Assembly: GCA_003241845.1 (NCBI GenBank)
Contig: QBMN01000017.1
Location: 1-50,015 of the forward strand
DNA: 50,015 nucleotides
DNA from: Shackletoniella antarctica
GTDB taxonomy: Bacteria > Cyanobacteriota > Cyanobacteriia > Phormidesmidales > Phormidesmidaceae
Direction of reading: 5' to 3'
This document shows positions 20,714-27,260 of the stretch, piece by piece. The translations under genes and the position numbers were made by a program. Positions within the stretch are counted from its first letter, which is position 1, and the number at the start of each line of letters is the position of its first letter. The notes under the pieces are model-generated. The model made no database searches. It saw only the letters and a program-made list of their open reading frames with translations, and was not told the origin of the DNA.

Positions 20714-25420
<4,707 letters not shown>

Positions 25421-25667: not shown

Positions 25668-26127
25668 ATGAACGTGAAGGTGATTGTCGAAGCTTCTGTA
25701 CCACCTACTGAGAAAGATCGGCTCTTCCGGTTTAGATATGCTTAATTGCTCTGCGATAATCTGAAATCGTTGCTATACAAGGCTTTCAGCCAAAATTAAG
25801 TCTTCAAGGTTCCTTTTATGGTACTAATGCTTATAAGCATTGGTATGAGGAGGTTTTAGGCCTCCTGGGTCTTAACCCCGCATAGTCAGACCGGAAGAGC
25901 CGAAAGATCTTGATGATTTGAGATTTGCATCATCTGCATTAACAAGCAATCAGAACAGTATCGCTGTAGAGATACAAGAAGAAAACGGCCAATTTCTTTT
26001 GATGGCCAGCTTCAAGATGAAAACGACTGCCCAGTATAAAGTGGTTGATCGTATTTCAAAGGAATTTGAATTCTCACTCGTCAGCTTAAAGGGTTATCAA
26101 GATACGTGTATTTCATTCCCTCGGTAG
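25668..26127 (+). pseudogene. Small ORF split by a MITE-like insertion (restored frame 89 codons, function unknown)
   Basis: MNVKVIVEASVPPTEKD (25668-25718) + LDDLRFASSALTSNQNSIAVEIQEENGQFLLMASFKMKTTAQYKVVDRISKEFEFSLVSLKGYQDTCISFPR (25909-26124); removing 184 bp plus one 6-bp duplication restores one frame. Confidence 0.85.
25719..25902. mobile_element. MITE-like element, 184 bp
   Basis: TIR CGGCTCTTCCGGT (13-bp perfect, extending imperfectly to ATGC over 23 bp) at both ends; 6-bp target duplication AAAGAT at 25713-25718 and 25903-25908. Confidence 0.9.
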
Positions 26128-26144: not shown

Positions 26145-27260
26145 ATGAGCGTATATCAATACTACGAATTTCAATCAATAGATCGCCCCTTGACGCTCCC
26201 GGAGCAGGCAACCCTGCAAGCGCTGTCAAGTAGGGCACACATTACCCCAAATAGGGCTAGCTTCCTCTACAACTATGGCGACTTTCGGGGCGATCCAGAG
26301 GCCATATTGGCCGAGCACTTTGATGCGATGTTGTACATTGCCAACTGGGGTACGTGGCAAATTGTGTTTCGCTTTCCTAAAGCGCTGGTGGAGCGCTCAT
26401 GGTTTGAGCCCTACGAGGTCGAGGATGCGATCGCCCTTTCCACCACCGCCCACCACCTGATTCTCAACATCAAGATTCAAGAAGAAGGGGGGATGATGGG
26501 TTGGGTCGAGGGCGAAGGCTGGCTGCCTCGGCTGTTGCCCCTGCGCGATGATCTGCTGGCGGGTGACCTGCGGCTGCTGTACTTGGCCTGGTTGCGGGTA
26601 TGCCCCAACCTGATCGAGTACGGCGAGGACAAAGACCCACTTGAGCCCCCAGTTCCCCCCAACCTAGGGAAGTTGACCCCACCCCTGAAGGCCTTTGTCG
26701 AGCTGGTGGAGCTAGACAATGCCCTGGTCTCAGCGGCAGCCCAGGCTAGCCCTAGCCATCGGCCAGCCCCAGCCCTCGAAGAGTGGCTACCCCAGCTAAC
26801 CGAGGCAGAACGCCAGGCGTTTTTGCTTAAGCTGGTGCGGCGAGAGCCCCACGTCGATCTGCAATTGATCAACCGCCTGAAAGAACTGGCGGGAGCTAAT
26901 CCATCAGTACCACCTGCCTCAGAGCAAGAACGGCGGCGGTTTTCAGAACTGGCTGCGATCGCCGCCGATAAAGAGGCCAAGCGCAAACGAAATGAGCAGG
27001 CAGCGGCTAAAGAACAGCGCATCAAAAATCTGGAGGCCTTGGCTCCCAAAGCTCCCCAAACCTGGGATCGGGTGCAGGATTTGATTCAGGTGAAGCAGGC
27101 CTATGCCTACGATGAGGCTACACAACTGCTGCGAGACCTGCGAGACCTGGCTGAACACCAGGGGCAACTGCCCGTCTTTAGCCAGCGCCTTGAGCGGCTC
27201 AAGGCCAACTACAGCAATCGACCCGCGCTAATGAAGCGATTGCTGTCAATCAAAACTTGA
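26145..27260 (+). CDS. Conserved hypothetical protein
   Basis: Intact 371-aa ORF, MSVYQYYEFQSIDRPLTLPEQATLQALSSRAHITPNRASFLYNYGDFRGDPE; starts 17 bp after the interrupted small ORF. Confidence 0.85.
   Translation: MSVYQYYEFQSIDRPLTLPEQATLQALSSRAHITPNRASFLYNYGDFRGDPEAILAEHFDAMLYIANWGTWQIVFRFPKALVERSWFEPYEVEDAIALSTTAHHLILNIKIQEEGGMMGWVEGEGWLPRLLPLRDDLLAGDLRLLYLAWLRVCPNLIEYGEDKDPLEPPVPPNLGKLTPPLKAFVELVELDNALVSAAAQASPSHRPAPALEEWLPQLTEAERQAFLLKLVRREPHVDLQLINRLKELAGANPSVPPASEQERRRFSELAAIAADKEAKRKRNEQAAAKEQRIKNLEALAPKAPQTWDRVQDLIQVKQAYAYDEATQLLRDLRDLAEHQGQLPVFSQRLERLKANYSNRPALMKRLLSIKT

Follow-up and report, generated by a model that had tools for sequence, protein, structure and literature searches.

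The window, a stretch of 50,015 nucleotides of Shackletoniella antarctica DNA (contig QBMN01000017.1), carries a small gene of 89 codons that is interrupted by a short inverted-repeat element and is followed by an intact gene for a 371-aa protein. The features at this locus are:

25668 to 25719, plus strand: 5' part of the 89-codon gene (17 codons and one base, including the first copy of the target duplication), which aligns with unbroken homologues
25712 to 25719, plus strand: first copy of the target duplication, GAAAGATC, identical to 25902-25909
25720 to 25901, plus strand: ISL3-type MITE of 182 bp, with a full-length second copy in its own genome and copies in relatives
25720 to 25741, plus strand: left terminal inverted repeat, GGCTCTTCCGGTTTAGATATGC
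25880 to 25901, minus strand: right terminal inverted repeat, GGCTCTTCCGGTCTGACTATGC (reverse strand), whose terminal 21 bp match the end of an ISL3-family insertion sequence in the relative G048 at 20 positions
25902 to 25909, plus strand: second copy of the target duplication, GAAAGATC, identical to 25712-25719
25910 to 26127, plus strand: 3' part of the 89-codon gene, open in frame as far as the stop at 26127; homologues run on unbroken
26145 to 27260, plus strand: intact 371-aa gene, second of a conserved pair, with homologues in 16 of 65 genomes

At a length of 182 bp (25720-25901), the element lies between two exact copies of GAAAGATC. Its inverted-repeat arms comprise 24 nt with 83% complementarity and are exact over the first 12 nt of the element. 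At a spacing of 100-700 bp, the window contains a single pair of exact 12-bp inverted repeats that also has an exact 8-bp direct repeat on its outer sides, and this combination was found in none of 100 Markov-shuffled windows. According to the ORF list, no gene within the element reaches 50 aa, and the element is shorter than the 500-bp limit for MITEs. It was assigned to the ISL3 family because of its ends, GGCTCTTCCGG, and the 8-bp duplication. The element is a non-autonomous, ISL3-type MITE without coding capacity. Its interior had been described as hairpin-rich in an earlier note on the window, and this was borne out by RNA folding (-70.6 kcal/mol, z = -6.6), with the terminal inverted repeats supplying much of the stability.

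When the flanks were joined without the element and one copy of the duplication, an 89-codon frame was obtained. The insertion adds 190 bp (182 + 8), which is not a multiple of three, and the interrupted frame from 25668 reads MNVKVIVEASVPPTEKDRLFRFRYA and stops after 25 codons. In the 3' part, the first possible start in frame is a TTG at 25918, from which a short C-terminal fragment could be made. The stop of the small gene lies 17 bp before the start of the 371-aa ORF. These results agree with the earlier note, which had proposed that excision restores an 89-codon ORF ending 17 bp before the 371-aa ORF and that the added 190 bp breaks the frame and brings in a stop.

Six relatives carry the 89-codon gene uninterrupted (G025, G043, G035, G028, G036 and G022; 59-82% amino-acid identity), and it is fully open in five of these, the G028 copy having a premature stop of its own. 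The insertion point falls in an ungapped, conserved stretch of the homologues (GAAAGACCTTGATGA in G025). Upstream, gltB lies in the opposite orientation in G025, G035, G028, G036 and G022 as in the window, which indicates that this is the same locus. Two outcomes regarded beforehand as contrary to a disruption, the same insert in all relatives and the lack of any homologue of the 89-aa protein, were not observed: the 182 bp were absent from the site in the relatives examined, and full-length homologues were detected in at least nine genomes. Homologues are present in Nodosilinea sp. LEGE 07298 and LEGE 07088, Leptolyngbya sp. PCC 7375 and Oculatella sp. LEGE 06141. For the small gene, dN/dS was ~0.2, which indicates purifying selection. 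No relaxation of dN/dS was seen for the interrupted copy, which suggests that the insertion was recent relative to the divergence, the gene being too short for firmness on this point. In G028 (L015) and G021 (L019), the 89-aa gene was independently broken by stop codons, and no 371-aa homologue was seen in these genomes. The stop in G028 and the broken homologue in G021 indicate that the small gene has decayed more than once.

Searches of Pfam, NCBIfam and PADLOC revealed no significant family for either the 89-aa or the 371-aa protein. AlphaFold2 modelling of nine homologues of the small protein gave a confident beta-alpha-beta-beta-alpha-beta (ferredoxin-like) fold with a pLDDT of 91. When the model of one 89-aa homologue was compared with PDB folds, only generic ferredoxin-like matches were returned (TM ~0.5), which indicated no function. 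The broken gene encodes a small conserved protein with a predicted ferredoxin-like fold.

The two-gene unit that had been suspected from the window recurs in other genomes. A gap of 16-21 bp separates the small gene from the 371-aa gene behind it in seven genomes (G025, G043, G035, G022, G036, G049 and G050), and the gap is 16-19 bp in the five relatives with a fully open small gene. The 371-aa gene was also found without a detected small gene (G048, G052, G034, G016, G003 and G055), and in turn the small gene, or a remnant of it, was found without an adjoining 371-aa gene (G028, G021, G015 and G012). Since each gene also occurs without the other, their pairing is conserved without being obligatory, and the 371-aa gene of the window may still work. 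The dN/dS of the 371-aa gene was similar across all comparisons. In Oculatella sp. LEGE 06141 (L087, 208-4402), a SWIM zinc-finger gene and a gene for a CcbP-like calcium-binding protein lie upstream of the pair, to which they may be functionally linked. Elsewhere at the locus, the gltB product has a repetitive stretch (window 23868-24083), which resembles a repeat inserted in frame into a conserved enzyme.

Further copies of the element, which the earlier note had proposed looking for, were found both in its own genome (one more) and in relatives. The second own-genome copy (G000:C66:5879-6060; L002) is 182 bp long, 89% identical and flanked by a perfect 8-bp duplication, GAAAAAGG; no frame recognised as clearly coding spans its joined site. 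The relative G048 has three 182-bp copies that are 80-81% identical to the window element. Full-length or near-full-length copies thus numbered two in the own genome, three in G048 and one each in G021, G043, G035 and G041, the last four being diverged; weak model matches in G026, G034, G056, G014, G047 and G011 were left out of this count. The copy number is low (1-3 per genome) and the sites are unrelated. The interiors of the own and G048 copies, from two genera, were 79-85% identical, and those of the G021 and G043 copies were ~60% like the own copies. Exact target duplications were seen only at the two own-genome copies; the three G048 copies and the G043 copy have none, as is expected of old copies. 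The element had no match in plasmid and phage collections at E <= 1e-5, and Rfam returned one sub-threshold, meaningless match only.

Screening 65 genomes of the family for the ISL3 transposase domain (PF01610) revealed a full-length insertion sequence with matching ends, which had likewise been suggested as a check. This element of G048 (L047, ~1.4 kb) is present in at least 10 full copies of 1401-1402 bp with an equal domain score in each. It is autonomous and encodes a 422-aa transposase with a DDE_Tnp_ISL3 domain. Its ends are GGCTCTTCCGGTCTGGCTATGG, present at both termini of the fully read copy, and perfect 8-bp target duplications were observed in all 10 copies examined, the same length as for the MITE. 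The right end of the window MITE is identical to the end of the insertion sequence at 20 of 21 positions, and one end of each G048 MITE is identical to it at 22 of 22. In contrast to these shared ends and duplications, the interiors are unrelated, with chance-level matches only beyond the ends, and derivation of the MITE by simple deletion is therefore unsupported. The own-genome assembly holds fragments of matching ISL3 elements only and no complete one. At the edge of contig C38, the last 154 bp of a close relative of the insertion sequence (86% DNA and 93% protein identity; end GGCTCTTCAGGCCTAGCTATG) run off the contig end, and C251 carries a 722-bp 5' part with 79% identity and an in-frame stop. 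A third ISL3 remnant, on C284, is less related. It represents a second ISL3 type (L003/L043) with a different end, GGCTCTTCCGGCAGTGTGGTG, and its 5' part is missing; the open frame that it retains overlaps a transporter-permease-like frame on the opposite strand, at the start of the latter.

We are therefore nearly certain that an ISL3-type MITE, probably inserted by an ISL3-family transposase acting in trans, broke the 89-codon gene and left the downstream 371-aa gene untouched. The anatomy of the element, its multiple copies and an autonomous family of insertion sequences with matching ends and duplication length all point in this direction, as do the uninterrupted sites in relatives, where the gene is open and conserved. 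In the proposed mechanism, an ISL3-family DDE transposase supplied in trans would insert the 182-bp non-autonomous MITE into codons 15-18 of the 89-codon gene. This would duplicate 8 bp of the target, add 190 bp and introduce the early stop, so that no full-length small protein would be made and the 371-aa gene would remain untouched. Judged from sequence, an ISL3 transposase probably made this insertion, and the protein has presumably been lost in the living strain.

The element might instead have been retained for some benefit, such as regulation of the downstream 371-aa gene by its hairpin. Its strong predicted fold and the 79-85% likeness of the interior between two genera would fit such a role, but we consider it very improbable. 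The element showed no intrinsic-terminator pattern, promoter-like matches in it were no better than in shuffled sequence, a consensus fold of seven copies gave an unfavourable covariation term, and the element was at this site in none of the relatives examined. As there is no terminator pattern, polarity towards the 371-aa gene is unproven, and so is the effect of the hairpins on transcription or translation that the earlier note had envisaged. A MITE within sbp of Microcystis is co-transcribed with the gene and apparently leaves downstream expression unaffected (PMC11448079), and polarity should therefore not be assumed here. Given the covariation term, we make no claim of a conserved RNA. 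It is also improbable that the interior of the element family (182 bp kept, 79-85% alike and unrelated to the insertion sequence) serves as more than inert filler and is maintained by selection, for instance as a structured RNA or a region bound by the transposase.

The earlier note had described a 184-bp element with a 6-bp AAAGAT duplication, which would place it in another transposon family. The inverted ends and the flanking repeat are indeed present, and one further C/G pair extends the inverted repeat, but the limits were wrong by one base on each side and the direct repeat was two bases short of the 8-bp GAAAGATC. This arose because the duplicated 8-mer begins with G and ends with C, a chance extension of the inverted repeat; the additional pair is the edge of the duplicated target. 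The longer limits are refuted by the second own-genome copy, which has GAAAAAGG directly outside GGCTCTT/AAGAGCC on both sides and lacks such an extension. With 8-bp duplications also flanking ten ISL3 copies that have the same ends, they are scarcely credible. The chance that assembly misplaced a repeat inside the gene is negligible even for a repeat in a draft of 287 contigs, as misjoining would not be expected to leave the site flanked by a perfect 8-bp duplication, and the 11% difference between the two own copies shows that they are not collapsed.

Disruption by an ISL3-type MITE resembles a case in Microcystis aeruginosa PCC 7806, in which a 187-nt ISL3-type MITE with 8-nt direct repeats is inserted within genes (sbp and livG); its ends, GGCTCTTCG, match ISL3-family insertion sequences and it is predicted to form a stem-loop (PMC11448079). 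Both elements are of similar size, lack a transposase gene, have 8-bp target duplications, ISL3-matching ends and a predicted stem-loop, and are intragenic, the comparison covering these features. In contrast to GGCTCTTCG in Microcystis, the ends of the window element, GGCTCTTCCGG, are longer (~22 bp, imperfect), and 1-3 copies per genome were found here compared to 31-33 for the Microcystis MITE. Nezha (Zhou et al. 2008, cited in PMC10969869) is likewise cited as a cyanobacterial MITE, and the citing review also covers other bacterial MITEs that disrupt genes. The element is thus of the same kind as the Microcystis MITE but from another cyanobacterial group, new only as an instance, and it extends ISL3-type MITEs from Microcystis to relatives of Nodosilinea and Leptolyngbya. 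With broken and unbroken sites, a target duplication, sister copies and an autonomous insertion sequence, it is a well-documented inactivation of a conserved cyanobacterial gene by such a MITE, a case of an ordinary kind that is unusually well supported and involves no new mechanism. The insertion also explains why annotation of the source genome would overlook the small gene.
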